Below, in pieces: positions 51,184-63,795 of a stretch of DNA of 64,000 nt. The translations under genes were made by a program, and so were the position numbers. The stretch's first letter is position 1. Each line of letters starts with the position of its first letter. A model generated the notes under the pieces. It saw nothing but the letters and a program-made list of their open reading frames with translations. It was not told the origin of the DNA and searched no databases. The stretch spans positions 1 to 64,000 of the forward strand of contig FCOD02000017.1 in assembly GCA_001544655.2 (NCBI GenBank). The letters run 5' to 3'. Source of the stretch: Caballeronia turbans (GTDB lineage Bacteria > Pseudomonadota > Gammaproteobacteria > Burkholderiales > Burkholderiaceae).

Positions 51184-51654
51184 TCAGAACGGCTTCGTGG
51201 GAAGATATTTCCCGTCCAGTGTGATCACCGCCCGATGGCCGCCTTCCGGATCGTCGACCTTCTTGATGTCGAGCTTGAAGTTGATCGCACTGATGATGCC
51301 GTCGCCGAATTCTTCATGTACCAGAGCCTTTAGCGTCGAGCCATAGACCTGCACCATTTCGTAGAAGCGGTAGATCGTCGGGTCGGTGGGTACGCCGCCC
51401 GGAATGCTGCCACGCATCGGAATCGTCTGCAGGGCGCGCGCCGCGTCCGAGTCGAGACCGAGCCTGTCGGCCACGACTCTTGCCACATCCGCCGGCAGGG
51501 GATGCTGTCCGAGAAGCGCGGCGGTCACGAAGGCGATGCTGAGTCCGGTGCCTTCCGTGAGTTGCTTGAAGGTTAGGTTCTTCGCGATCTTGGCGTCGAT
51601 GATTGCGTCGGACAGCGTTGCACGCGCGTTCTGACGGTACTGGGACTGACTCAT
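51184..51654 (-). CDS. cynS: Cyanase (cyanate hydratase)
   Basis: A 156-residue cyanase, which converts cyanate and bicarbonate to ammonia and CO2. The N-terminal helical DNA-binding-like fold ([26 protein letters not shown]) is followed by the highly conserved catalytic part: [40 protein letters not shown] and INFKLDIKK, with the catalytic Arg, Glu and Ser in the expected places (YRFYE and GDGIIS). The length is the family norm. It follows the carbonic anhydrase gene by 33 nt in one operon. Confidence 0.96.
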
Positions 51655-51687
51655 GATGAATCTCCGGATGGGAAGTTAAGGTGCTGG

Positions 51688-52347
51688 TCAGGCGGCAAGG
51701 CTCGCACGGGCCGGTTCTGCACACGCGTTCGGATGCTTCGAAAGTGAGACGAAACGATGGGTGGCACCATCGAGCGCGTCGACGGATCCCGTTTCAATGT
51801 CATAGACCCAGCCATGGATCGCGAGGACGCCTTGCTCGATCGCGAGCCGCACGGAGGGATGAGTCTTGATGTTGGCAAGCTGGGCGATGACGTTTTCGCG
51901 AATCATCGAGTCGATGCGGTCGCGTTCGCTCGAATGCTTGCGTGCTTCGTTCACGACCCGCGCTGAGTCCGCATACTTGAGCCAGCTCCGGACCGACGGC
52001 ATGTGATCCATGCAGGCACATGTCGCGATTGCAGTCATGGCGCCGCAGTCCGAATGGCCGCAAATGACGATGTCGGTCACGCCGAGTCCCGCGACGGCAT
52101 ATTCGACGGTCGCGGTCACGCCGCCCGGTTCCGGACCATGAGAAGGAACGATGTTGCCGGCATTACGGATGACGAACAGGTCGCCCGGTTCACGCTGCGT
52201 CACGAGTTCGGGCACGAGCCGGCTGTCTGAACACGAGATAAACAGCGCGCGGGGATTTTGGCTCGTTGCAAGCCTCTTAAAGAGTTTCGTGCGCTGCGGG
52301 AAGGCTTCCCGCTGAAACCTGAGAAATCCGTCGATGATGTCTCGCAT
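51688..52347 (-). CDS. cynT: Beta-carbonic anhydrase (cyanate operon)
   Basis: A 219-residue beta-class carbonic anhydrase. Zinc ligands are visible as SCSDSR and GHSDCGA (C-x-D-x-R, H-x-x-C), with [11 protein letters not shown] and the C-terminal GWVYDIETG. Next to cyanase it supplies bicarbonate and limits its loss when CO2 is released, the known role of CynT. The Cys-rich segment [11 protein letters not shown] is not part of the active site. It is divergent from the LysR-type regulator at 52472. Confidence 0.93.
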
Positions 52348-52471
52348 CTTTCACTCCGCGATTGTGAACGGTGACTCGATGAGGTGAATGCTCGACGGTT
52401 TCGGCTATAGTGTCCAAGACCGGTTTCTTATCCGATCTATAGGGAAGACCAATACCGAAGGAGTCGCAACC

Positions 52472-53404
52472 ATGCTGCTACGACATATCCGGTATCTGCT
52501 GGCCGTAGCGGAGCATCGCAATTTCACGCGCGCCGCGCAGGCCCTGCACGTATCTCAGCCCACGCTCTCGCAGCAGATCCGACAACTCGAAGAAGCCCTC
52601 GGCGCTCTCTTGCTGGATCGGACTGGGCGTTCTATTCGCCTGACCGACGCAGGGGAGGCCTATGTCAGCCACGCGCGGCGTGCGCTGCAGCAACTCGAGT
52701 CCGGCAAGCGCGCCATTTCCGATGTTCAGGACCTCAGCCGCGGCGTTCTGCGCATCGCGGCAACCCCAACGTTCACCGCTTACTTCGTCGGACCGTTGAT
52801 TGAGGCATTTAACCGTCTGCATCCGAAAATCATGCTGAGCTTCACGGAGATGCCGCAAGATCGGATGGAGGCCTTGCTGTCCGACGACGCGCTGGACGTC
52901 GGAATCGCATTCGACACGGTCTCGAATGAGGAAATCGAGCCGCAGGTACTTTTCGTCGAGGAACTGGCGCTGATGATCGGCAAGGCGCATCCCCGAGCAA
53001 GAGGGCAGCTTGGCATGACGCTCAACGAACTCAAGGAGGAGCCGCTGATCTTGTTGAACGGAGAATTCGCGACGCGCCGATACATCGACCGTTATTTCCG
53101 CGAGAACGGCGTGGCGCCGCGGCTTGCAATGGAAGTCAATTCGATCAGCGCCGCGATTGAAGTCGTCAGCCGCAGTGCACTTGCGACGCTGCTTCCAGCC
53201 GCAATCACGCGTGAGCATCGCGAGCTGTGCAGCGTCCAGCTTGAGCCGGCACTGCCGCAGCGGACGGCCGCGCTGCTGCTTCGCAAGAGTGGGTACAGGA
53301 GCGCGGCGACACGGGCTTTCGTGGCTTTATCGGTGCTGCAAAGCGATGCCGAGCGTGCCGCTGGGAAGCGGGTCAAGCGGAGCAAACGTCCTACTACCGA
53401 GTGA
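52472..53404 (+). CDS. cynR: LysR-family regulator of the cyanate operon (CynR)
   Basis: A 310-residue LysR-type activator. It opens MLLRHIRYLLAVAEHRNFTRAAQALHVSQPTLSQQIRQLE, the CynR-like HTH, followed by the effector domain from about residue 90. AAGGAGTCGCAACC precedes the ATG at 52472. It is divergent from cynT-cynS, as in E. coli. The 124-nt intergenic region has two CTATAG elements (52405-52410 and 52437-52442) that may mark its binding site. No cyanate transporter (cynX) is seen in the window. Confidence 0.88.
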   Translation: MLLRHIRYLLAVAEHRNFTRAAQALHVSQPTLSQQIRQLEEALGALLLDRTGRSIRLTDAGEAYVSHARRALQQLESGKRAISDVQDLSRGVLRIAATPTFTAYFVGPLIEAFNRLHPKIMLSFTEMPQDRMEALLSDDALDVGIAFDTVSNEEIEPQVLFVEELALMIGKAHPRARGQLGMTLNELKEEPLILLNGEFATRRYIDRYFRENGVAPRLAMEVNSISAAIEVVSRSALATLLPAAITREHRELCSVQLEPALPQRTAALLLRKSGYRSAATRAFVALSVLQSDAERAAGKRVKRSKRPTTE

Positions 53405-53514
53405 CGGTCTTGCATCTTCCGGCGGTTGGTTCGACGTTTGGCGACAATGCGACGAAGGTGTCAGGCGGACTCGAACGCCGACGATTAACAAATGCTTTAA
53501 GCAAACTGCTTTTC

Positions 53515-53524
53515 GCATACAATC
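53515..53524. promoter_or_regulatory. Putative MocR site GCATACAATC, upstream of the regulator
   Basis: GCATACAATC lies 6 nt before the MocR ATG at 53531. The same 10-mer is at 55377-55386, and inverted or near copies lie at 55514-55541, before the binding-protein gene. MocR proteins commonly recognise repeated ATACA-type elements. Confidence 0.45.
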
Positions 53525-53530
53525 TTCCGA

Positions 53531-54943
53531 ATGTATGTATCGAGAGCGATGATGATCAAGCGGTGGGTTCCGGATATCAAAGCGCGTAAGGGTCCAATCT
53601 ATCAGCGCATTGCCGATGCGATGGCCGCCGACATCTCGCATGGAACGCTAAATCGGGGCGACCGGCTTCCACCTCAACGAGCTCTGGCCGCGGCGATCGG
53701 CGTCGATTTTTCGACCATCAGCCGCGCCTATGCGGAGGCGCAGCGGCGCGGCCTTATCGATGCGCGAGTCGGCAGGGGCACATTTGTCCGTCATTTGCGC
53801 GACCGAGCGCCCACGCCGTCGTCCAATGCATCGACGGATTTCATGGTGAACTCGCCGCCCAATGTTTTCGAGGGCGAGGCGGGTAATACTCTCTGGAACG
53901 AGGTGTCAAGGGCAACGGTCGCACTCGATGCCAAGGCATTCATGCGGTATCAGCCACCGGCGGGAACGATCCACGACCGCGACGTGGGCGCGCAATGGCT
54001 GCGCCAGCGCCTGAGCGCGGTCTCGGCGGAGCAGGTGCTTGTCTGTCCAGGAACGCAATCCGCATTGCTCGTGGTCATCATGATGCTTGCTGCAAAGGAC
54101 GACGTCCTGTGCGTCGAAAACCTCACTTATCCTGGCATCATTCTCATCGCGCGCTATCTTGGGATCCGCCTGGTAGGTGTCGAAATGGACGATCAGGGCG
54201 CTATTCCGGAATCTCTTGACAAGGTGTGCAAGGAACATCGGGTGAAGGCGTTCTATTGTATGCCGACCTTGCACAATCCCACCACGCGGAGCATGTCGCT
54301 GAAACGCAGGATGGCGATTGCCAGCGTGCTGTCACGCCATCGCGTTTCGCTGATCGAGGATGACAACTATTGGCCGCTTCTCGCTGAGCGTGGCAACGAG
54401 TTGCCGCCGCTTTCGAGTTTCTTGCCCGACCAGTCTTTCTATCTTTCGGGGCTCTCCAAATGTCTCACGCCGGCGCTGCGAATTGCCTATCTGGCGACGC
54501 CGGAAAAGTCTTTCGCCGAGCGTGCTGCTGTCATTTTGCGCGCGACCGCGTCGATGGCGTCACCTCTGAGCGCTGCGTTAGCAACCCGATGGATCGAAGA
54601 TGGCACCGCGTCAACCTTACTTGCCGCAATATGCCAAGAGGTCGCAGCGCGGCAGTCGTTGGCGCGGGACATTTTGCCCGAACGGACGAAACACACGGAC
54701 CTGCGAGCGTTTCACACCTGGTTGGTACTGCCGAAAATCTGGACCCGAGCGGCTTTCGCCGAGCGGCTTCGAGCCGACGGCATCAACCTCGCCTTGAGCG
54801 ATGCTTTTTGCGTCGGCGTAGCAGAGGAGGCCGTGCGCCTCTCATTGGGTGGGCCGCCCACCATCGGCGACCTGAAGTTCGGGCTCGAAAAGATCGCATC
54901 GCTGCTCCGCTCTGACCTATCTGAGCCCAGCGTGATCGTGTGA
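53531..54943 (+). CDS. MocR-type regulator (GntR HTH + aminotransferase-like domain)
   Basis: A 470-residue MocR protein. The N-terminal GntR winged helix has GPIYQRIADAMAADISHGTLNRGDRLPPQRALAAAIGV, and a fold-type-I aminotransferase-like domain follows (VLVCPGTQSALLVVIMML, FYCMPTLHNPTTRSMSLKRR, VSLIEDDNY, YLSGLSKCLTPALRIAYLA with the PLP Lys in SGLSK). ATG at 53531 is taken; 53549 or 53552 is possible. MocR regulators bind PLP or amine/amino-acid aldimines. EnuR, which controls ectoine catabolism, is one, and an EctC-like gene lies downstream. Control of the amidase/EctC-like operon is inferred. Confidence 0.88.
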   Translation: MYVSRAMMIKRWVPDIKARKGPIYQRIADAMAADISHGTLNRGDRLPPQRALAAAIGVDFSTISRAYAEAQRRGLIDARVGRGTFVRHLRDRAPTPSSNASTDFMVNSPPNVFEGEAGNTLWNEVSRATVALDAKAFMRYQPPAGTIHDRDVGAQWLRQRLSAVSAEQVLVCPGTQSALLVVIMMLAAKDDVLCVENLTYPGIILIARYLGIRLVGVEMDDQGAIPESLDKVCKEHRVKAFYCMPTLHNPTTRSMSLKRRMAIASVLSRHRVSLIEDDNYWPLLAERGNELPPLSSFLPDQSFYLSGLSKCLTPALRIAYLATPEKSFAERAAVILRATASMASPLSAALATRWIEDGTASTLLAAICQEVAARQSLARDILPERTKHTDLRAFHTWLVLPKIWTRAAFAERLRADGINLALSDAFCVGVAEEAVRLSLGGPPTIGDLKFGLEKIASLLRSDLSEPSVIV

Positions 54944-55587
54944 GCTCGGCGTGCTGCGAGTACGCCGGCCTCGCCGGATGCGCCAGTCGTTACCGAAGCA
55001 GTTCGGCTGCAGTCGTCCTTTTACTGGGACGAAGATGCCGAGCGGTCGCAGCGAGACCGATACCCCTTTGTTCGACCCGCTGCGATACGGCCGACACTGC
55101 CGCCGTATCGCCCCCCGGTCCAGTTCCGACCCGTTGCATGCTGTGACGGCAATGGACGTCTTCTCACTTTAGTTTAAAGCCGACCGCCCTCAGTGTTTGT
55201 GACCACTGGCCCGCACCCTTGGAAGGATTGCTATCCCTCAGCGGATTGCACGATTGCACTCATCATGGGCGATGCGACCTAATGAATCTAAGACGCATAT
55301 CCGGAGGAGCGCCCGGTACACCGATCCCAAGATTCTGCGAACATGTTTCTCATAGCGTTCGTTCGCCAGCGTGGCTGCATACAATCGATTTAATGTCTGC
55401 ATCTCGCAATCTGAAAGAGACAGGCGTCCTGGTCCATATCGCCGGGTGTGCTTTCTAACTATTATGAAACTGGTTGCCTAGCCGAAGCTTTGCCAGCATC
55501 ATCACGTCATGCCATTGTATGTATCTGTGTATGCGTACAATTGACCAGTTAACCAAACAACCGACGCTGGATGGATGGGAGCGAGCA
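54944..55587. promoter_or_regulatory. Long promoter region with repeated MocR-like sites
   Basis: There is no convincing gene. Sites present are GCATACAATC (55377-55386), ATTGTATG (55514-55521, inverted) and TGCGTACAAT (55532-55541). The last two form an imperfect inverted repeat about 50 nt before the binding-protein ATG at 55588. The rest shows no recognisable feature. Confidence 0.45.
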
Positions 55588-56733
55588 ATGAGGGCTATAA
55601 CGGGTTTTATTGGCGGTGCGTTGTCGCTGACGCTGGCGCTCGCGCCGATTGCGGGGCGGGCAGACGATGCGATCGTCAAGATCGGCTTTGCGGCGCCGCT
55701 TACCGGGCCGTCCGCGGCCGACGGCAAGGAAATGGAAAACGCCGCGCGGCTGGCGGTCGAAGATGCGAATTCACGCCGTCCGACGCTCAAGGGAAAGGCG
55801 GTTCGATTCGAACTCGAACCGCAAGACGATCAAGGCGATCCTCGCATCGCTTCGCAGATTGCCCAGCGATTCGCCGACATCGGAGTGTCGGGCGTTGTAG
55901 GGCACTTCAATTCCACCTGTAGCATCGCCGCTGCGAGAACGTATTCGGCAGCCAACATTGCCCAGGTCAGTCCAAGTTCGACTAGCGCGTCCTATACGCA
56001 GCAGGGCTACAAGACGACCTTCAGGGTGGTGGGTCACGATGCCGTAGCCGGCGCGACGCTCGGCAACTATCTGGTCGATCAGCTGAAGGCCAAGCGAATC
56101 GCGATCATCGACGATCAGACTGACTTCGGGCGAGGCCTCGCCGACCGGGTCGAGGCGACCCTGCGCGAGCGCCACGCGAACGTTGTGGCGCATGAATATG
56201 TGACCGATAAGACCATCGACTTTAGCGCCGTGCTCACTAAGCTGCGCGCCAAGAACCCCGATGTCATTGTCTTCGGCGGCTTCGACGCGCAGGCGGCTCA
56301 GGTGGTAAGACGGATGCGCAGTTTGGGTCTGACGGCGACGCTCGTCGGCGAGGGGTTCAACAACGAGATCTTTCTTGACCTTGCCAAAGGCGAGGGAGAG
56401 GGTTCGCTGGCCGTTCAGCCCGGTATACCGTTTTCGCAGATGCCCGGAACGGACTTCGTCAATCGTTATCGCACGCGCTTCGGTACGAGTCTGAAAGGCT
56501 TCCAGGGGCCGTATGCCTACGACGCCGCGTCGGTGATCATCGAAGCGGTGCTTAAGGCTCAGTCGAAGGATCCGGCCAAAGTGCTGGCTGCTGTCGCCGA
56601 CAGCAGCATCAAAGGCGCCACCGGACCTATCGCATTCGATGCACGCGGCGATCTGGCCAGCGCTCCATACACGCTCTACAAGCTAGAAGGAAAAGACTGG
56701 CGCGACATCGACGTGATCCGGGCGAAGCAATGA
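55588..56733 (+). CDS. Branched-chain amino acid-type ABC substrate-binding protein (orphan)
   Basis: A 381-residue periplasmic binding protein of the LivK/type I family. The signal peptide is MRAITGFIGGALSLTLALAPIAGRAD, then DAIVKIGFAAPLTGPSAADGKEMENAARLAVEDA. Typical later parts are VVGHFNSTCSIAAARTYSAANIAQVSPS, FRVVGHDAVAGATLGNYLV and FDARGDLASAPYTLYKLEG. GGGAGCGAGCA lies before the ATG at 55588; longer upstream frames would hide the signal peptide. No permease or ATPase genes are nearby, so it must use a distant transporter or act as a sensor. Likely ligands are amino acids, amides or ectoine-like compounds. Confidence 0.87.
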   Translation: MRAITGFIGGALSLTLALAPIAGRADDAIVKIGFAAPLTGPSAADGKEMENAARLAVEDANSRRPTLKGKAVRFELEPQDDQGDPRIASQIAQRFADIGVSGVVGHFNSTCSIAAARTYSAANIAQVSPSSTSASYTQQGYKTTFRVVGHDAVAGATLGNYLVDQLKAKRIAIIDDQTDFGRGLADRVEATLRERHANVVAHEYVTDKTIDFSAVLTKLRAKNPDVIVFGGFDAQAAQVVRRMRSLGLTATLVGEGFNNEIFLDLAKGEGEGSLAVQPGIPFSQMPGTDFVNRYRTRFGTSLKGFQGPYAYDAASVIIEAVLKAQSKDPAKVLAAVADSSIKGATGPIAFDARGDLASAPYTLYKLEGKDWRDIDVIRAKQ

Positions 56734-56794
56734 CATGCAGGCTTAATGCGTTGGCAAGCGAAGTAAGGTCTCGCACGCGGGAGGGCTGAGACAG

Positions 56795-58099
56795 ATGTCG
56801 GGCGAATCGAGGGTCGAGCAAAGCCGAGCGGTTTCGTTGGCATTCAGTGGGCTGGACAAAGTGTTCCTGCGCACGCGATTCGATGCCGCTGCAGCCGATG
56901 CCATCGCGATTGACCAGGCAGTCGCATCCGGCGCAAGCCTCCCGCTGAACGGACTGATTCTGGCCGTGAAGGCGTGCTTCGATGTCGCCGGATGGGTCAC
57001 CGACGCGGCTTCGGCCGTTCTATCGGACCAGCCCGAAGCGACGCGCGATGCTCCGGTCGTTGCTGGGCTGCGCGCCGCCGGTGCAACACTGGTGGCGCAC
57101 ACTAACATGACCGAATTCGCCTTCGGCGCTCTTGGCATCAACAACACCACGGGCACGCCCGTTACTCCGCTCGATGCGCATGGAGAACGGGTTGCCGGCG
57201 GATCGACTTCCGGCGGCGCCGTTGCAGTTGCAAGAGGTTTTGCGGACATTGCGCTCGGTACCGACACGAGCGGTTCGATCAGGATTCCGGCGGCGTTTTG
57301 CGGGATCGTAGGCTTCAAGCCTTCGACGAATGTTATCTCGACGCAAGGGTGCATTCCGCTGTCGACCACCTTCGATGCGCCAGGCTTCATTGCCCGCGAT
57401 GTAAGCACCATTGTCAGGGTGGTAGAGGCGTTGAAACTTTACAGGACACCCGTCGTGCGGGTTCGGCCGACGAGGCAGCTTGAAGGGATCCGGCTGGCTC
57501 TGCCCGTGGATTTCGCACTGACTGGTTGCGATCCGACTGTCGTCGCAGCGTTTGAAGCGTGTGTCAATCGCCTTGCCAGCCTTGGTGCTTCGATCGTTGA
57601 GACCGACTTCATGGACCTTAGAGCGCCGTCGCGTATTGCCGCCGAAAGCGGGATCATTGTGGCGGACGCCTTCGCATGGCACGAACCGTGGATTCGTACG
57701 CGACTGGCGCGTTACGACCCGCTCGTCGGGCCCAGGATATTGCGCGGTGAATCGATTCCGGCTTATCGATACCTGAAGGGCGCGGCAGCGCTCAAGCACG
57801 AAGCCAATGTGTTTGACGCAGAAATGGCGCGCTACGATGCTCTGTTGACCCCGACAGTGCCCATTGTTCCGCCTCGGATCGCAGACGTGACCGCGGACGA
57901 GATCGAGTATCTGCGTGTGAACGCGCTATCTTTCAGTCTCACCGAGCTGGCGAATCGCCTTGACGCGCCGAGCATCGCCATGCAGTTCGATCCGGCCATG
58001 CCGCGACCGTTCGGGCTGATGCTCACTGGACGCCGCCATCGCGACATCGATCTGCTCTCCGTGGCGCGCCGAGTCGAGGCGGCGCTGTCGAAACCTTAA
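56795..58099 (+). CDS. Amidase (amidase signature family)
   Basis: A 434-residue amidase-signature hydrolase. The catalytic Lys is K59 (ILAVKACFDV), the cis-Ser lies in GGSTSGGAVAVARGFADIAL (S137/S139), and the nucleophile is S161 in TDTSGSIRIPAAFCG. It hydrolyses a C-N amide bond with release of ammonia or an amine. The ATG at 56795 is 61 nt after the binding-protein stop. Together with the DUF2817 protein it offers two amide- or peptide-cleaving activities in one operon. The substrate is unknown, but an N-acyl diamine or ring-opened amide would fit the EctC-like neighbour. Confidence 0.88.
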   Translation: MSGESRVEQSRAVSLAFSGLDKVFLRTRFDAAAADAIAIDQAVASGASLPLNGLILAVKACFDVAGWVTDAASAVLSDQPEATRDAPVVAGLRAAGATLVAHTNMTEFAFGALGINNTTGTPVTPLDAHGERVAGGSTSGGAVAVARGFADIALGTDTSGSIRIPAAFCGIVGFKPSTNVISTQGCIPLSTTFDAPGFIARDVSTIVRVVEALKLYRTPVVRVRPTRQLEGIRLALPVDFALTGCDPTVVAAFEACVNRLASLGASIVETDFMDLRAPSRIAAESGIIVADAFAWHEPWIRTRLARYDPLVGPRILRGESIPAYRYLKGAAALKHEANVFDAEMARYDALLTPTVPIVPPRIADVTADEIEYLRVNALSFSLTELANRLDAPSIAMQFDPAMPRPFGLMLTGRRHRDIDLLSVARRVEAALSKP

Positions 58100-58127
58100 T
58101 GCGAGATCCATCGAAGAGGAAACAGAG

Positions 58128-58520
58128 ATGATTGTCAGAGACGTTGCATCGATCGTTGGAACGGCACGGCACGCCTCCGGAAAAGGGTGGGAGAGCAAGC
58201 GGCTCATCGTCGCGAGCGATGACGTGGGATTTTCGGTTCATGACACCACGGTCCTCGAAGGAACTGAGCTGGAACTGGAGTACAAGCATCACATCGAGGC
58301 TAACTACTGTTTCGCAGGAGTAGGAGAAGTCGTCAACCTCGCCACCGGCGACACGCACACCATTCAGGCCGGATCCATCTACGTCCTCGATAAGCACGAC
58401 CGTCATAAAGTGCGCGCTGTCAAAGGCGATCTTCGTTTGGTCTGCGTTTTCAATCCGCCTCTCGTCGGTGATGAAACGCATCGCGATGACGGCAGTTACG
58501 CACCTTCGCGAGATCAGTAG
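58128..58520 (+). CDS. Solitary ectoine-synthase-like cupin (EctC family)
   Basis: A 130-residue cupin of the ectoine synthase family. MIVRDVASIVGTARHASGKGW is followed by ELEYKHHIEANYCFAGVGEV, IYVLDKHDRHKVRA and VFNPPLVGDETHRDDGSYAP, which follow EctC closely. E57, Y85 and H93 fall at the positions described as iron ligands in EctC of Sphingopyxis (from memory), and W21, T40 and H118 are also kept. EctA and EctB are absent. EctC closes N-gamma-acetyl-diaminobutyrate to ectoine and can act in reverse. Here, between an amidase and a metallohydrolase, it could cyclise or open a related compound. Function is open. Confidence 0.82.
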   Translation: MIVRDVASIVGTARHASGKGWESKRLIVASDDVGFSVHDTTVLEGTELELEYKHHIEANYCFAGVGEVVNLATGDTHTIQAGSIYVLDKHDRHKVRAVKGDLRLVCVFNPPLVGDETHRDDGSYAPSRDQ

Positions 58521-58566
58521 CCCACCGCTGATCGACGCGGCTCATTAAGGCGGACGGGGCGCACTC

Positions 58567-59667
58567 ATGTTCTTCGCAAACACCGACTACTTTTCTCCGA
58601 CATATGCTGTCGCACGCGATAAGTTTCGCGCCGCGGCAAGCGGCGCGGGGGCGGATCTAGACGTCTACGATTACGATCGCTCGCCCGGGATCGAGGAGGA
58701 GCGTCTGAGCATCGACGTCGCGTGTTTAGGAAGCGCAACGAGCCGGCACAAACTTGTGGTCATCAGCGGAACGCATGGAACTGAAGGCTACGCCGGCTCC
58801 GCGCTCCAGACCGCGTGGCTTCGGCTCTGTGCCTCGCGGCGAGAGCTCGACCACATTGGCGTGATTCTCGTCCACGCACTTAATCCCTATGGCTTCTCGT
58901 ATGGCGTTCGGACCAACGAAGACGGCATCGACCTCAATCGTAATTTCGTGGACTTCTCGAGGGGCAGGCCGGAAAACCGGATCTACGACGAAGTGCATCG
59001 CTTCCTGAACGCGGACATTGCCGACGCGGATCGGTGTTCGCACGCCGAAGCAGGGCTCAGCGCCGCGCGCAACCGTCTCGGAGAGGACGCGCTTTTTGAC
59101 GCGATCGCACGCGGCCAGTACGCGCACCCGGACGGCGTGTTCTTCGGAGGCACGCGGCGGACATGGGAAAACCATACGCTGCAAAGAATTGTGCAGGCGC
59201 ATCTTCTACCGGCGGAGAAGGTGGCGGTAATCGACTGGCACACCGGCATCGGCGATTACGGCGAGGCATTTTTCCTGCCGTTCGCTGACGCCGAATCCGA
59301 TGCATACCGGCGAACCACGCAATGGTGGGAGAAGGATGGCTTGCCTGCTGCGCGTCCGCATGGACGCAGCTGCCCCCGCTACCAGGGTCTGGTTTTTGAC
59401 GGCATCCGGAAGCTTCTGCCGCATGCGGAAGTGGCAGGCGGCGTCATCGAGTGGGGCACGCGCGGCCGCGAGCCGGGCGAGCTGGCCATCCGGCAGGACC
59501 TATGGCTACGCCGGTTCAGCGATCGCTATCCGCGAGAGGCGGTCGTACAAGTGCGCGCAGACCTTCTCGACTCATTTGTTCCCACATCCTATGTCTGGCG
59601 TAATTCGGTGCTTTCGTCGGGTACGGGGATCGTCGATAAGACCGTGGACGGACTAATCCAATGGTAA
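58567..59667 (+). CDS. DUF2817 (M14-like zinc metallohydrolase)
   Basis: A 366-residue protein of the DUF2817 family, related to M14 carboxypeptidases and the AstE/aspartoacylase group. The zinc motif H-x-x-E is in ISGTHGTEGYAG (H70, E73), DLNRNFVDF supplies the substrate-binding Arg, a third ligand lies in VIDWHTGIGDYG, and a catalytic Glu may be in VIEWGTRG. In ectoine degradation an AstE/AspA-type enzyme (DoeB/EutE) deacylates acetyl-diaminobutyrate; this protein could do a parallel step. That is inference. It is 46 nt after the EctC-like gene and 28 nt before the VOC gene. Confidence 0.83.
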   Translation: MFFANTDYFSPTYAVARDKFRAAASGAGADLDVYDYDRSPGIEEERLSIDVACLGSATSRHKLVVISGTHGTEGYAGSALQTAWLRLCASRRELDHIGVILVHALNPYGFSYGVRTNEDGIDLNRNFVDFSRGRPENRIYDEVHRFLNADIADADRCSHAEAGLSAARNRLGEDALFDAIARGQYAHPDGVFFGGTRRTWENHTLQRIVQAHLLPAEKVAVIDWHTGIGDYGEAFFLPFADAESDAYRRTTQWWEKDGLPAARPHGRSCPRYQGLVFDGIRKLLPHAEVAGGVIEWGTRGREPGELAIRQDLWLRRFSDRYPREAVVQVRADLLDSFVPTSYVWRNSVLSSGTGIVDKTVDGLIQW

Positions 59668-59695
59668 GTTCTTTTGACCAGGGATCGTTAGGTAA

Positions 59696-60553
59696 ATGAA
59701 GACGCCATTCCGGTTTGACCACCTCGTCGTGGCAGTGCATTCCTTAGAGGCGGCTGTGTTGGACTATCGGCGACTGGGCTTCAACGTTTCTGCCGGTGGA
59801 CGGCACACCCATGCGCCGACGCGCAATGCGCTCATTTATTTTCACGACGGCGCTTATATCGAGTTGATCGAATGGGTCAACCCCGCGAACGGCGAGAAAT
59901 GGTACGAACGTCTGACGAGACGAGGCGAAGGCGTCATCGACTTCGCGCTCTGCCCTGCGGATTTCTCGATCGAAACGCAACGGTCGGACAGGCGCTACGA
60001 CTTCTACAAGAACGCTTCTGCAGGCTCGCGCGTTCAGGCGGACGGCGCGGAGATGCACTGGCTACTTGGCTGGCCGACAGACGAGGCGCTTCCATTCCTC
60101 TGCGCCGATGTGACTGCGAGACACCTTCGCGTCCCTGAGGGAGACTGTCGTGTTCATTCGAATGGCACGCTAGGAATTCGCAGCGTTTCGGTTCAGGTGC
60201 TCAATCTCGACAAGGCGGTGCAACGTTACGAACGCTTGCTTCTGTCGACCGCTGAGCGCATTGATCTTCCCTGGCTGGAGGATGTAGGTCTCGAGGCCGC
60301 GTCTTTGATGGTCTGCACGACGCGGATTTTCCTTGTATCGCCGAGAACCCACAGCAAGGTGGACATCGCGCAAGCGCTGGCACGCGATCTGTCGACCTAT
60401 GGCTCGAGAGTGTATCGAGTTGCACTAGCGCATGACCGGCAGAATGCTCCGCCGACAATGCCGCTCGATCTGACGCACGGCGCGCACCTGACGACGCCCG
60501 AAGCGGACGATGATATCGAATCGCAACTGCTTCCTCTTCGCGCCGCGCGCTGA
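59696..60553 (+). CDS. VOC/glyoxalase-like domain protein (PF13468-type)
   Basis: A 285-residue glyoxalase-like protein. The first module is FRFDHLVVAVHSLEAAVLDYRRLGFNVSAGGRHTHAPTRNALIYF and DGAYIELIEWVN, the pattern of the Glyoxalase_3 family. The second half is less regular (LGIRSVSVQVLNLDKAVQRYERL). The full H-H-E iron set of extradiol dioxygenases is not evident, so this may be an isomerase or lyase. GGTAAATG at 59690 contains the start region; the ATG at 59696 is the only sensible start. It is co-transcribed with DUF2817. Confidence 0.8.
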   Translation: MKTPFRFDHLVVAVHSLEAAVLDYRRLGFNVSAGGRHTHAPTRNALIYFHDGAYIELIEWVNPANGEKWYERLTRRGEGVIDFALCPADFSIETQRSDRRYDFYKNASAGSRVQADGAEMHWLLGWPTDEALPFLCADVTARHLRVPEGDCRVHSNGTLGIRSVSVQVLNLDKAVQRYERLLLSTAERIDLPWLEDVGLEAASLMVCTTRIFLVSPRTHSKVDIAQALARDLSTYGSRVYRVALAHDRQNAPPTMPLDLTHGAHLTTPEADDDIESQLLPLRAAR

Positions 60554-60641
60554 ATACCGCGGCAGACGTTCCGGCAAATCGCGGCGGCGGCGTCGGGGCG
60601 ACAGCCTTGCGTCATAAGAGAATTGATATCGAGGGGAACAG

Positions 60642-61400
60642 ATGAAAGCACTAGTCGTTTTCGCCCACCCGGAAGCACAATCGTTCAACGGGCAACTTAA
60701 GGAAACTATCGTCGCGGCGCTTCGCGAACAAGGAGCCGACGTTCATGTTTCCGATCTGTACGCGATGGGCTTCGATCCGGTCGAAGGACCCACACATTTC
60801 GAGCATCGCGCGCGGCCTGATGTCTTCGATGTACAGACAGAACAGCGCCATGCCTTCGACGAGCAACTGATGAGTGAGGACATACGCGCGGAAATCGCCA
60901 AGCTGCTGGAAGCGGACCTCGTCGTCTTCCAGTTTCCGATCTGGTGGTTCTCGATGCCAGCGATGCTTAAGGGATGGCTGGATCGCGTATTCGTGTATGG
61001 GCTTTTCACGAGCAGGCGACGCTACGACGAGGGCTTCTTTGTCGGACGCCGCGCGCTGGTATCCGTGACCGCGGGCGGCCCGGAGTCGACCTTCAGCCAC
61101 AACGGACGCAACGGCGACCTCGATCTTATTCTCTGGCCGCTGCACTTCACATTGCACTACATGGGGTACACAGTGCTGCCATTTTTTGCGACCTTCGGGA
61201 TCTCAGCGTCTATACGCTACGCGGGTATATCAGCCGATGCGCCGCGTCTCGAGCGCTACAAGGCGGATTTGCGGGCGCATATTGCGAAGATCGACCATAT
61301 GACGCCGCTTCGGTTCAACGGCTGGCAAGACTGGGATGCGCTGGGTCAACTGAAGCCCGACGCGCCGAGCTTCAGTCCGTTCATGCGCCATGCTTTTTGA
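60642..61400 (+). CDS. NAD(P)H quinone oxidoreductase (NQO/flavodoxin-like fold)
   Basis: A 252-residue flavodoxin-like FAD-binding reductase of the NQO1/KefF/MdaB group. It starts MKALVVFAHPEAQSFNGQLKE, the adenine/phosphate-binding motif, then DLYAMGFDPV, and LVVFQFPIWWFSMPAMLKGWLDRVFVYG, the family signature. VSVTAGGPESTFSHNGRNGDL follows. The ATG is 88 nt after the VOC gene. It may reduce quinones by two electrons and protect against redox cycling. It ends the cluster; the following 1 kb has no intact gene. Confidence 0.86.
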   Translation: MKALVVFAHPEAQSFNGQLKETIVAALREQGADVHVSDLYAMGFDPVEGPTHFEHRARPDVFDVQTEQRHAFDEQLMSEDIRAEIAKLLEADLVVFQFPIWWFSMPAMLKGWLDRVFVYGLFTSRRRYDEGFFVGRRALVSVTAGGPESTFSHNGRNGDLDLILWPLHFTLHYMGYTVLPFFATFGISASIRYAGISADAPRLERYKADLRAHIAKIDHMTPLRFNGWQDWDALGQLKPDAPSFSPFMRHAF

Positions 61401-62412
61401 TCTTGTGTGCGTAGGCTCCTAGTAACGCTGAAGTGGCTTGGACTTTTTGGCCGTATCTTGTCAGAGTCCAAGTTCGCCGAGACTGGCGGTGGTTGCCCGG
61501 ATGCGTCCGTACGGTCAGAAAAATTCCGATCGCTTCCTTGATACGGAAGTCGTTAATCCGTCCTGTGAGCCGAACGTTCAGAACGGCGGACGGCCGACGA
61601 AAGGCGGATAGGGCAGGCTTCACTGTTACAGAGTCATTCGACGCTAAAGCAAGTACAGCGATTCCATGCGGCCAAGTGCCAGCTCGGGGCAACAAGTGCG
61701 CAATCCATGGTGGTCTGTTGCAGTCACCGACCGGCACGTGGTGCGGCGGCCCAATCGAAGACATTGTATGCGCCTGCTTCAACGTGGTCGGCGAGGGCGC
61801 TCGCCAAGATCATCGCGTCGGAGTTGACCGGGCCTCCAACGCCCCTCCGAGATGGGCGGAAGACATCCGCGCCGCGCGTGACGGACTGGCCCGACAGAGA
61901 GCATATTCCGGCGCGCCGCGCTTTGCCTCTGCGCCATTTCTGATCCTCGTAATGACAAGCGGTAGAGTCATGCCACGACAGGGTCGCCGTTCGGGCGCTG
62001 AGCTCGGCGATGCGGATTCGAACGCAGTCATTCCTCGCCTGACTCTCGGCCGTTGGCGCGACCGCCTCTTTCCACCGCCTTGTCGCTTGAATGGTCCGTG
62101 ACTTATAGCGCGGTGTCACCACGTTCAATCCCGCGCATTCGGGAAGCCGTCTTAACCGCTCGAGCGTGTCCTGCCAGACAAGAAAGTCGTTTTCTCGATC
62201 ATTCATTCCTGACATCCCTCTGTGGCGACTGGTCAGCGTTTGATAGGAGCCGCTCCTCGCATGTTTTCACACACAAAAGCTGTCGGTCTTTCAATCCCGC
62301 GCGCTGCGTGGGGCATGAATTTCAAAAAAAGAAGAGCGGCCGCGGACATCTACAAGCGTCGTTCTCACATCGTGGGCAAACCGAACATCAGTCGAGGGGA
62401 CCGACCGGCTGG
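61401..62412. other. 1-kb region without an intact gene
   Basis: No reading frame looks complete. At about 61759-61790 one frame reads IEDIVCACFNV, which resembles the C-x-C-F-x-V opening of the BFD-like [2Fe-2S] domain in nitrite/nitrate reductases, and the next frame continues ARALAKIIASELTG. A frameshifted remnant is possible but weak. The rest shows no repeats or transposase. Confidence 0.3.
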
Positions 62413-63381
62413 TCACGGTGCTTCGACTTGGGCAGCGGAAGCGGCGCTCAGTCGCCATCGTTGCGGCGTCATGCCGGTCACTTTCCGAAACACGGTCGTG
62501 AAGTGTGCTTGCGAATTGAAGCCGACAGATATCGCGATTTGAGCGATGGGCATACGATTTTCCGCCAGCAGGCCCTTGGCGGTTTCCAGTCGCATGACAG
62601 TGAGGTATGTGTGAGGGCTTAGTCCTGTCAAGCGCTTGAACTGCGACGCGAAATGCATTCGGCTGAGGCCGGCGAGGTCAGCGATGTCACTGAGCGTCAC
62701 CCGCTCGCCTAATCGGCTCTCCATATACGCGATCGTCCGTTCGAGCCACCACGGAGGCAGCGCTTGCCTCGGCTTGTCGTCAAGCTGCGACCCATTCTCC
62801 ATCGCGCGGGTGAGAATGGCCATCGCGAGACTGTTAGAAAAAGCGTGTGCGTACGGGTTCCTGAGAGCCTCGGTCTCAAGCAGCATGCACGCGAGCTTGC
62901 CCATCATCGTATCGGCCGCAAAACCCGGATCCACAAGCCGATAATCCGGCGCAGCCGCCTTTCCGTGCAACTGGAGATGCACCGAAGCAACCACCGACCG
63001 AGGCACAAACACGTGAATAGCTTCGGCACTCCGGGTGAAGCTTGCCGCTAGCTGATCCTCCGGCGCGGTTACTTGCGTGGCGCCAAACGCAACGGGGCCA
63101 TTACGCAGGTTTCTTCCGTTTTTGGAACACGTAATGGTGGTTGCCCGCAGCAGCACTTCAATGATGTAGTGCGAGCTCTGAGTCGGGGCGGAATACCGAC
63201 GTTCGACGTGCGTCTCGTCTTTCCAGTAAGCAATGTTTATTCGATCGCCGCGGTGATCCATCGACGCTGCGATGGATCTCCACGAAACCTCCTTGATCAG
63301 GACGGGCAATTCGAAGTGTGGCGAAAGAAAATCATAAGCGGCAGCACGGTCAACCAACACAGGATCAGTCGTAGTCACCAT
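62413..63381 (-). CDS. AraC-family transcriptional regulator
   Basis: A 322-residue regulator with a C-terminal double HTH: LGERVTLSDIADLAGLSRMHFASQFKRLTGLSPHTYL, then AKGLLAENRMPIAQIAISVGFNSQAHFTTVFRKVTGMTPQRWR. The N-terminal part (about 200 residues) is a cupin-like sensory region without a clear motif. The ATG at 63381 starts MVTTTDPVLVDRAAAYDF. It lies between the quinone reductase region and an aldehyde dehydrogenase on the same strand whose start is off the window, so a regulatory link to that gene cannot be decided. Confidence 0.86.
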   Translation of the reverse strand: MVTTTDPVLVDRAAAYDFLSPHFELPVLIKEVSWRSIAASMDHRGDRINIAYWKDETHVERRYSAPTQSSHYIIEVLLRATTITCSKNGRNLRNGPVAFGATQVTAPEDQLAASFTRSAEAIHVFVPRSVVASVHLQLHGKAAAPDYRLVDPGFAADTMMGKLACMLLETEALRNPYAHAFSNSLAMAILTRAMENGSQLDDKPRQALPPWWLERTIAYMESRLGERVTLSDIADLAGLSRMHFASQFKRLTGLSPHTYLTVMRLETAKGLLAENRMPIAQIAISVGFNSQAHFTTVFRKVTGMTPQRWRLSAASAAQVEAP

Positions 63382-63795
63382 CGAGCGCGTAGTAGCTGAA
63401 GCAATGTTTCAATCGGCACTTGCGGACTATTCCGGCGAGAGCCGGATTGATTCCCTGCGAACCACAACGTCAGTCGGCGACGATGGCCAGGACTGGAAGT
63501 GCCACCCGAAGTCCGAGGAGCCAAGCTTTCAGCGAATCAACGCCGCCTGGCTCGCTCGATGATTGCAGCGAACGCATCGTCCAGACAAGCCGCGGCCGAA
63601 GACCGGCGGCGATCAACGTCCGGTTGATACTTACATTACTTGCGTTCGCAGAATAATGCAAACAATTTGATTCTATGCTGCATTGAGTGCATACATTTCG
63701 ACGCTGATCACATATTCGTCTGCATCGCGCTAACAGGCCGGCCACCGCAGCCCGGCGAAATCGCACGGAGATGTGGGTGGGCTTGAATCGCGGGC
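63382..63795. other. Intergenic region before the AraC gene
   Basis: About 410 nt between the aldehyde dehydrogenase stop and the AraC start, both on the minus strand. No convincing gene is present. An A/T-rich stretch near 63625-63670 may hold the AraC promoter, but no clear -35/-10 pair is claimed. Confidence 0.35.

Follow-up and report, generated by a model that had tools for sequence, protein, structure and literature searches.

The known alpha route of ectoine breakdown runs by way of DoeA, N-alpha-acetyl-diaminobutyrate (N-alpha-acetyl-DABA) and DoeB, and the systems of ectoine and hydroxyectoine catabolism (ehu/ueh-eutABCDE/doeABCD) are associated with the regulator EnuR. Ectoine synthase, EctC, has its place in the ectABC pathway of ectoine biosynthesis. 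EctC proteins have also been described as orphans (Widderich 2014; Czech 2018, 2019), and passages of papers of 2014, 2018 and 2019 state the function of such solitary EctCs to be unresolved (PMC3979721, PMC5924519, PMC6344544). One of these orphans is encoded in the stretch of Caballeronia turbans DNA analysed here (contig FCOD02000017.1, positions 1 to 64,000; hereafter the window), next to genes for an amidase and a solute-binding protein (SBP). Unlike the orphans as described, it can be placed in a particular subclade, in which an amidase, an importer and a candidate operator recur. The amidase and importer context of this lone EctC suggests the uptake and processing of an ectoine-like compound and not the making of ectoine. 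The EctC-amidase pairing was not found in the titles and abstracts searched, which is not proof of its absence from the literature, and "amidase" is nowhere mentioned in the main texts of PMC5924519, PMC6344544 and PMC13188858.

The product of the window ectC gene (58128-58520, plus strand) exceeds the curated cut-offs of both Ectoine_synth PF06339 (174.3 bits, cut-off 27) and NF009806 (175.5 bits, cut-off 128), and it is the sole PF06339 match in the 7.35-Mb genome. The original prediction had noted the lack of ectA, ectB and ask_ect. Neither ectA nor ectB stands beside the gene, and a search with TIGR02406 extended the absence of EctA to the whole genome, which was not searched for EctB and ask_ect. 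The residues E57, Y85 and H93, correctly named in that prediction as kept, correspond in the alignment to E57, Y84 and H92, which hold the iron in P. lautus EctC, an enzyme whose residues binding iron, N-gamma-acetyl-diaminobutyrate (N-gamma-ADABA, also N-gamma-acetyl-DABA) and ectoine are given in a section of PMC6344544. All the known substrate and product residues (in P. lautus numbering W21, S23, R25, N/H38, T40, Y52, and F106) are present as well, with His at position 38, as in S. alaskensis EctC; the loss of substrate residues that could have spoken against the original prediction was thus not observed. The predicted model of the window EctC has its best structural matches among EctC structures, i.e., it appears to adopt the EctC cupin fold.

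Relatives of this EctC were collected from 398 family genomes (35 of them with a match), a scan of 84,980 species (best 80 of 103 confirmed relatives), plasmids (121 records, with 10 regions around EctC matches examined, one of them unannotated), and a phylum sample; loci are designated by L numbers and genomes by G numbers. The EctC-positive family genomes G017, G112, G225, and G248 stand outside the neighbour analysis. A tree of 102 EctCs, from which nine duplicate loci and two short ones were dropped (the pieces too short being those of L033 in G347 and L057 in G286) and in which one identical pair was kept, places the window EctC within a clade that has 38 members (support 96/87). When rows from plasmids and the phylum sample were included, 44 rows made up the smallest set that contains this clade (SH-aLRT 95); one row is a window copy, and the others are 43 loci, these being the 38 together with the plasmid loci L165, L166, L167, and L174 and with L169. 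For 42 of these loci, the neighbours come from homology searches; those of L169 were read from its annotation, complemented by a search for the amidase.

An amidase gene adjoins ectC in 39 of the 43 clade loci, and an import SBP is encoded in 38 (SBP3 with a fused permease-ATPase in 29, LivK type in 7, and Ehu type in 2); the glycine-betaine ATP-binding cassette (ABC) set on the opposite strand of L169 was left out of the latter count. Less widespread are GntR-FCD regulators (30 loci), DUF1989 (25 loci, on the same strand as EctC in 4), and a unit MocR, Flavodoxin_2, VOC, and DUF2817 (7, 6, 5, and 4 loci, respectively). The amidase-bearing loci, many of them from soil and plant bacteria with ectC directly after the amidase gene, represent seven families of Pseudomonadota: Burkholderiaceae, Alcaligenaceae, Rhizobiaceae, Brucellaceae, Paracoccaceae, Acetobacteraceae, and Pseudomonadaceae. 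The 43 loci are not independent events, because many come from close kin (14 Burkholderia-type, 7 Achromobacter); the adjacency of amidase and EctC is more than chance, because the two are neighbours in seven bacterial families. The conserved core is the amidase, EctC, and an importer, and not the whole gene list. The pathway-like context originally predicted for this EctC thus recurs beyond close relatives as regards the amidase and the importer, while DUF2817 and MocR, for which the same had been expected, do not belong to the core.

Three sets of importer and regulator genes accompany the pair: LivK with or without MocR; SBP3 and a fused ABC protein with GntR-FCD and often DUF1989, as in Burkholderia and Achromobacter; and an Ehu-type (ectoine) importer with an EnuR-like MocR on two Rhizobium plasmids. 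That these genes form a plasmid-moved cassette of hitch-hikers without a common pathway seems to us very improbable. The sporadic distribution of the unit and its location on plasmids in Caballeronia zhejiangensis and Rhizobium would fit such a history, but the pair is kept across classes with three different importers and regulators, DUF2817 and VOC are syntenic in two genera although their products are only 55% and 50% identical, respectively, and the operator described below is conserved.

The amidase of the window (56795-58099, plus strand; PF01425, 244.9 bits) retains K59, S137, and S161, which by motif position fit the Lys-cisSer-Ser triad, as had been predicted; the two serines are assigned to the triad after FAAH. 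In a tree with long-branch warnings, the EctC-linked amidases form one clade (38 rows) apart from eight paralogues of the own genome, the nearest of which is 42% identical to the window amidase. Its closest solved relatives are allophanate hydrolase, a "probable amidase", and biuret hydrolase.

In comparison with the EctC step of ectABC biosynthesis, the window EctC differs not only in its missing partners and in its amidase and importer context, but also in having N59 where cluster-encoded EctCs have V59; in these respects it departs from the biosynthetic (ect cluster) type. Position 59 is occupied by V in 52 of 53 EctA/B-linked EctCs, the sole exception being L116, of another lineage in the tree of 102, and by N in 42 of 42 labelled clade members; the 67 other rows (including one window copy and L169) comprise 35 with N, 25 with C, and 7 with V. 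Further differences from the EctA/B-linked EctCs are milder. The appearance of N59 fits one change on the EctC tree, and therefore it marks a wider solitary lineage and not just the amidase-linked EctCs. In the model, the predicted strand 56-70 carries E57; residue 59, two residues on in the same strand, should face the barrel on the same side.

Such a difference raises the question of another substrate. It is possible, albeit doubtful, that the same architecture serves the degradation of another small cyclic amidine or of an N-acyl or ureido amino acid, for instance, of a ring that derives from glutamine or whose 2-substituent is polar, with EctC acting just as a ring-opening or ring-closing catalyst. 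In view of N59 and DUF1989, we consider a different substrate nearly as likely as breakdown of an ectoine-type solute. The N59/V59 difference at a position predicted to face the barrel, the kinship of the amidase to the hydrolases named above, the presence of DoeA and DoeB elsewhere in the genome, and the occurrence in 25 of the 43 loci of DUF1989, which is related to UAAP1/UAAP2, all argue for it. On the other hand, the remaining known EctC substrate and product residues are kept, the units of Rhizobium contain an Ehu importer and an EnuR-like regulator, and N59 is common to solitary EctCs with different neighbours. The joint presence of DUF1989 and an allophanate-hydrolase-like amidase in the Burkholderia and Achromobacter units resembles guanidine/urea-type modules; in contrast to these, the DUF1989 of the units is single and far below the UAAP1/UAAP2 cut-offs, and the window unit has none.

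In the window, the gene of a MocR/GabR-type regulator (53531-54943, plus strand; a GntR helix-turn-helix and an aminotransferase-like domain, Pfam GntR and Aminotran_1_2) lies 644 bases upstream of six tandem plus-strand genes (55588-61400 in the open reading frame listing), which are separated by gaps of 61, 28, 46, 28, and 88 bases. The first of them encodes a LivK-type periplasmic SBP (55588-56733, plus strand; Pfam Peripla_BP_6), with no permease or ATPase genes beside it. The consecutive arrangement from 55588 onward agrees with the original prediction, and each assignment is backed by Pfam and NCBIfam. The MocR has K310 of an S-K motif at the expected position of the pyridoxal 5'-phosphate (PLP) lysine, and its best NCBIfam model is that of EhuR/EnuR (NF052286). 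Its likeness to EnuR holds to this extent; it is not EnuR itself, as its score shows (see below).

A putative palindromic MocR operator of the form ATTGT-N18-ACAAT, assigned to no strand, is located at 55514-55541, 46 bp ahead of the LivK start, and reads ATTGTATG-N12-CGTACAAT, with TTGTATG-N12-CGTACAA at 55515-55540. The pattern TTGTATG-N2..24-CATACAA with at most one mismatch is present in six of the seven MocR-linked units (the window, L031, L048, L165, L166, and L167), always before the SBP gene, and L167 has a second copy ahead of another ehuB. Neither the LivK units that lack MocR (L039, L049) nor the canonical EnuR region of the same genome (L152) contain the pattern, and its only matches in 2,290,403 bases from other loci, which overlap in part, are two re-fetched window copies. 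The 12-spaced form with at most two mismatches matches twice in the window against 0.04 expected from shuffling, one two-mismatch place being at 63671-63696; the own genome contains one site at one mismatch and six further places at two mismatches (one in the reversed control). Exact sites occur in 6 of the 398 family genomes (three in the reversed control). That of G295 lies at an EctC unit; no unit genes were found within about 1.5 kb of the other five. The pattern was rejected as a guide to a wider regulon, with so few sites and five of six exact-site loci lacking unit genes nearby.

The published EnuR consensus, as given in a part of PMC8739950, is ATTGT-N6-ACAAT. The window half-sites are EnuR-like, but they are spaced by 18 bases instead of 6, and no spacing-6 site with at most one mismatch is found in the window. 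The own EnuR region presents the reverse, with a one-mismatch spacing-6 site and no long-spaced one; L048 has both kinds of sites, and L032 a one-mismatch spacing-6 site. In contig C65 of the same genome (L162:9351-16571), another EnuR-like MocR lies between an apparent nitrilase-type cluster and genes of an ABC importer, a PhyH/EctD-like dioxygenase, and an AtzE-like amidase, and a cluster annotated as Nit6803 nitrilase likewise lies next to the second MocR of L166.

The units of the two Rhizobium plasmids comprise a divergent MocR, ehuB-ehuC-ehuD-ehuA, the amidase, EctC, and a homologous Flavodoxin_2 gene. On re-scoring, their EhuB proteins reached 227.4 and 225.8 bits (cut-off 190.9), and their EhuA proteins 328.4 and 346.4 bits, i.e., one below and one above the cut-off of 345.4; the best model of their MocRs is EhuR, at 367 and 376.8 bits, below the cut-off of 480. 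By annotation model, these Ehu units would tie the EctC-amidase pair to an ectoine-type solute.

Since an importer and a substrate-type regulator accompany EctC and the amidase, breakdown is the simpler reading. Our preferred explanation, which we hold at somewhat less than even confidence, is that the genes form an inducible unit for taking up and degrading an ectoine-type solute, via an N-gamma-acyl-diamine common to EctC and the amidase. Delivered by the binding protein (LivK here, Ehu in Rhizobium, and SBP3 in Burkholderia and Achromobacter), this solute would be either a cyclic amidine or the N-acyl-diaminobutyrate that is its open counterpart. In the cell, EctC would convert the ring into the open N-gamma-acyl-diamine and back. 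By irreversibly removing the acyl group from the N-gamma-acyl amide, the amidase would draw the EctC reaction, whose equilibrium in the case of ectoine lies on the side of the ring, towards the open form. Such a gamma route would run in parallel with the known alpha route. The MocR may sense the primary-amine product through PLP and act at ATTGT-N18-ACAAT before LivK, and DUF2817, VOC, and the flavodoxin-fold reductase may be lineage-specific helpers. The substrate class, the direction of EctC, the amidase substrate, the inducer, and MocR binding to the site are what we infer; gene content, the clade, co-occurrence, and the conservation of the operator, residues, and fold are observed. The module would share with ectoine and hydroxyectoine catabolism the SBP-dependent import (Ehu in the Rhizobium units), a regulator closest to the EnuR/EhuR model, and possibly a logic of two hydrolytic steps, on a ring and on an amide.

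Several observations weigh against this explanation. N59 suggests an altered EctC pocket, and DUF1989, present in 25 of the loci, has no obvious role in ectoine chemistry. As described in parts of PMC5924519 and PMC3187862, H. elongata EctC hydrolyses ectoine to a negligible extent; coupling to the amidase or a different ring could relieve this difficulty. Four clade loci (L032, L089, L093, and L169) lack the amidase, as does L033, a truncated EctC of the same genus outside the trees; L032 retains MocR, LivK, EctC, and VOC, and has operator half-sites only, without the paired operator. The window MocR scores 425.6 bits with NF052286, below the cut-off of 480, compared with 622.8 bits for the EnuR of the same genome (contig C72). 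Two further own-genome MocR paralogues reach 401 and 372 bits with this model and, as read from translations, adjoin unrelated neighbours, a PfpI-like gene or a nitrilase-type cluster. Moreover, in the MocR tree the window-type regulators do not group with those of the Rhizobium units (two changes). The EnuR likeness of the MocR as a proof of ectoine use is weakened by these paralogues and by the tree. Finally, with DoeA and DoeB already in the genome, a second ectoine route would be redundant here.

The canonical cluster of this genome (contig C72, L152) encodes EnuR, EutD/DoeA (770.2 bits), and DoeB (575 bits), all above cut-off, and, as read from translations, EutB, EutC, an AsnC-type regulator, a dehydrogenase, and an aminotransferase. 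It is separate from the window unit, where no EutD/DoeA or EutE/DoeB was found among the nine proteins scanned (52388-63381). The proposal that the amidase and DUF2817 replace DoeA and DoeB had to be abandoned, because the genome holds both; besides, DUF2817 is confined to 4 of the 43 loci. In the family sample, EutD occurs in 85 of 398 genomes, i.e., in 9 of 18 with a clade EctC versus 76 of 380 others, a comparison that ignores genus kinship; a link of the unit to EutD was not retained. Together with the C72 cluster, the 9 of 18 indicate that the unit neither replaces the canonical route here nor requires it elsewhere.

The same data bear on the idea of a clean-up branch, in which EctC and the amidase would handle N-gamma-acetyl-DABA coming from DoeA. 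According to parts of PMC3187862 and PMC5924519, H. elongata DoeA yields the alpha and gamma isomers at 2:1, and the latter is seemingly not used by DoeB; the own genome does encode both enzymes. We regard this idea as quite improbable, as half (9 of 18) of the family-sample genomes with a clade EctC have no EutD, the unit comes with an importer gene of its own, and doe genes are not annotated in the stretches around the three annotated plasmid units, the sole loci checked. Somewhat less improbable, though still unlikely, is salvage for osmoprotection, in which imported N-gamma-acetyl-DABA, from plants or ectoine decay, would be closed to ectoine by EctC, and the amidase would trim a longer precursor or limit the pool. 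The apparently intact EctC active site and the importers of the units are compatible with it. As reported in parts of PMC5924519 and PMC3979721, ectoine was formed by P. syringae, which has a solitary EctC, on addition of host leaves, but in the same study feeding of N-gamma-acetyl-DABA gave no ectoine. Furthermore, a MocR or GntR-FCD regulator together with an amidase would point to nutrient use over osmotic stress.

The genes downstream of ectC encode a DUF2817 protein (58567-59667, plus strand; 332.2 bits), a VOC/Glyoxalase_3 protein (59696-60553, plus strand; Pfam Glyoxalase_3), and a Flavodoxin_2 NAD(P)H-dependent oxidoreductase of the flavodoxin fold (60642-61400, plus strand; Pfam Flavodoxin_2). 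The first, a putative, distantly M14/AstE-AspA-like metallohydrolase, matches AstE_AspA_cat (PF24827, the DoeB superfamily) at 26.2 bits over part of the domain, barely above the cut-off of 25. It contains the predicted H-x-x-E motif as H70-x-x-E73, with a later H225, kept in three aligned proteins. In the units, DUF2817 is limited to Caballeronia and Paraburkholderia, while a Flavodoxin_2 homologue (71% and 58% identity) follows EctC in the Rhizobium Ehu units. Elsewhere, 125 plasmid records match DUF2817, four of which were examined. In three rhizobial plasmids (L170:4965-6932, L172:4974-6938, and L173:4980-6947), genes of DUF2817 proteins annotated at about 655 aa share operons with those of a Rieske oxygenase and of ABC permeases, near a HisC-type or other class I/II transaminase, hinting at amine breakdown; the DUF2817 gene of L171 lies among unrelated genes.

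The closest named relatives are Caballeronia cordobensis and C. zhejiangensis; the latter carries the unit on the 666-kb plasmid p3, with cynS, carbonic anhydrase, and cynR genes upstream. Cyanase-like, carbonic-anhydrase-like, and CynR genes also precede the window unit (51184-53404), and CynR that of C. cordobensis. They are probably not part of the EctC unit, because the Paraburkholderia unit lacks them.

Solitary EctCs were also found in other settings. Two Shinella loci (L169:5244-8381 and L093), whose EctCs are identical over 124 columns, have a clade EctC after a gene annotated in L169 as aconitase (acnA), without the amidase; this EctC looks like a clade member that has lost its partner or has another role. 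Outside the clade, an amidase lies near the solitary EctCs of L129, L134, L215, and, as a weak match, L209, which were not counted among the 39. In L215 (5019-6887), the gene immediately before that of the distant EctC encodes an amidase from another clade, and the same genome contains a canonical ect cluster besides (L218); the amidase-EctC pairing may thus have arisen more than once. In the phylum sample, EctC is present in 60 of 398 genomes; the 50 stretches inspected (one place twice) contain EctA/B in 39 cases, a weak amidase match in 2, an AMP-binding enzyme in 1, and none of these in 8, two of which are only 3.4 kb long.

In 16 Roseobacter-type loci with shared neighbours (L085, L091, L094-L099, L103, L105, L112, L113, L117, L120, L122, and L124), a solitary EctC is encoded in an apparent ribosomal spc operon before secY (e.g., L095:8001-8387, the only locus in which SecY was identified), and Trp21 is replaced by Phe in 14 and by Leu in 2 of them. 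Four solitary EctCs accompany AMP-binding enzymes (L168:2903-7399, L041:4186-10209, L050:8542-13364, and L056:8167-11440), and that of Rhizobium gallicum also has a carrier protein and a GNAT gene nearby; from such neighbours, there seem to be orphan EctCs of a second kind, with a biosynthetic role. In two actinobacterial metagenome-assembled genomes (L106:6457-8381 and, alike, L132), EctC follows a glutamine-synthetase-family gene, identified by Pfam in L106 and by the same cluster in L132. This neighbour recalls the reported side reaction of EctC from glutamine to 5-amino-3,4-dihydro-2H-pyrrole-2-carboxylate (ADPC).

It is a tentative proposition that an orphan EctC clade of several bacterial classes is a catabolic ring-handling enzyme, which is pulled backwards in a gamma route with an amidase and an importer and which in part of the clade is governed by an EnuR-like regulator with its own operator. 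If this is true, the catabolic reading would be the first function for this part of the solitary EctCs. EctC would then run backwards in nature, so that this cupin could both close and open the ring, and among the bacteria that are counted as possible ectoine makers on account of a lone ectC, some would be consumers. The amidase partner, the importer, the candidate operator, and the diagnostic residue 59 make the function of solitary EctCs testable.

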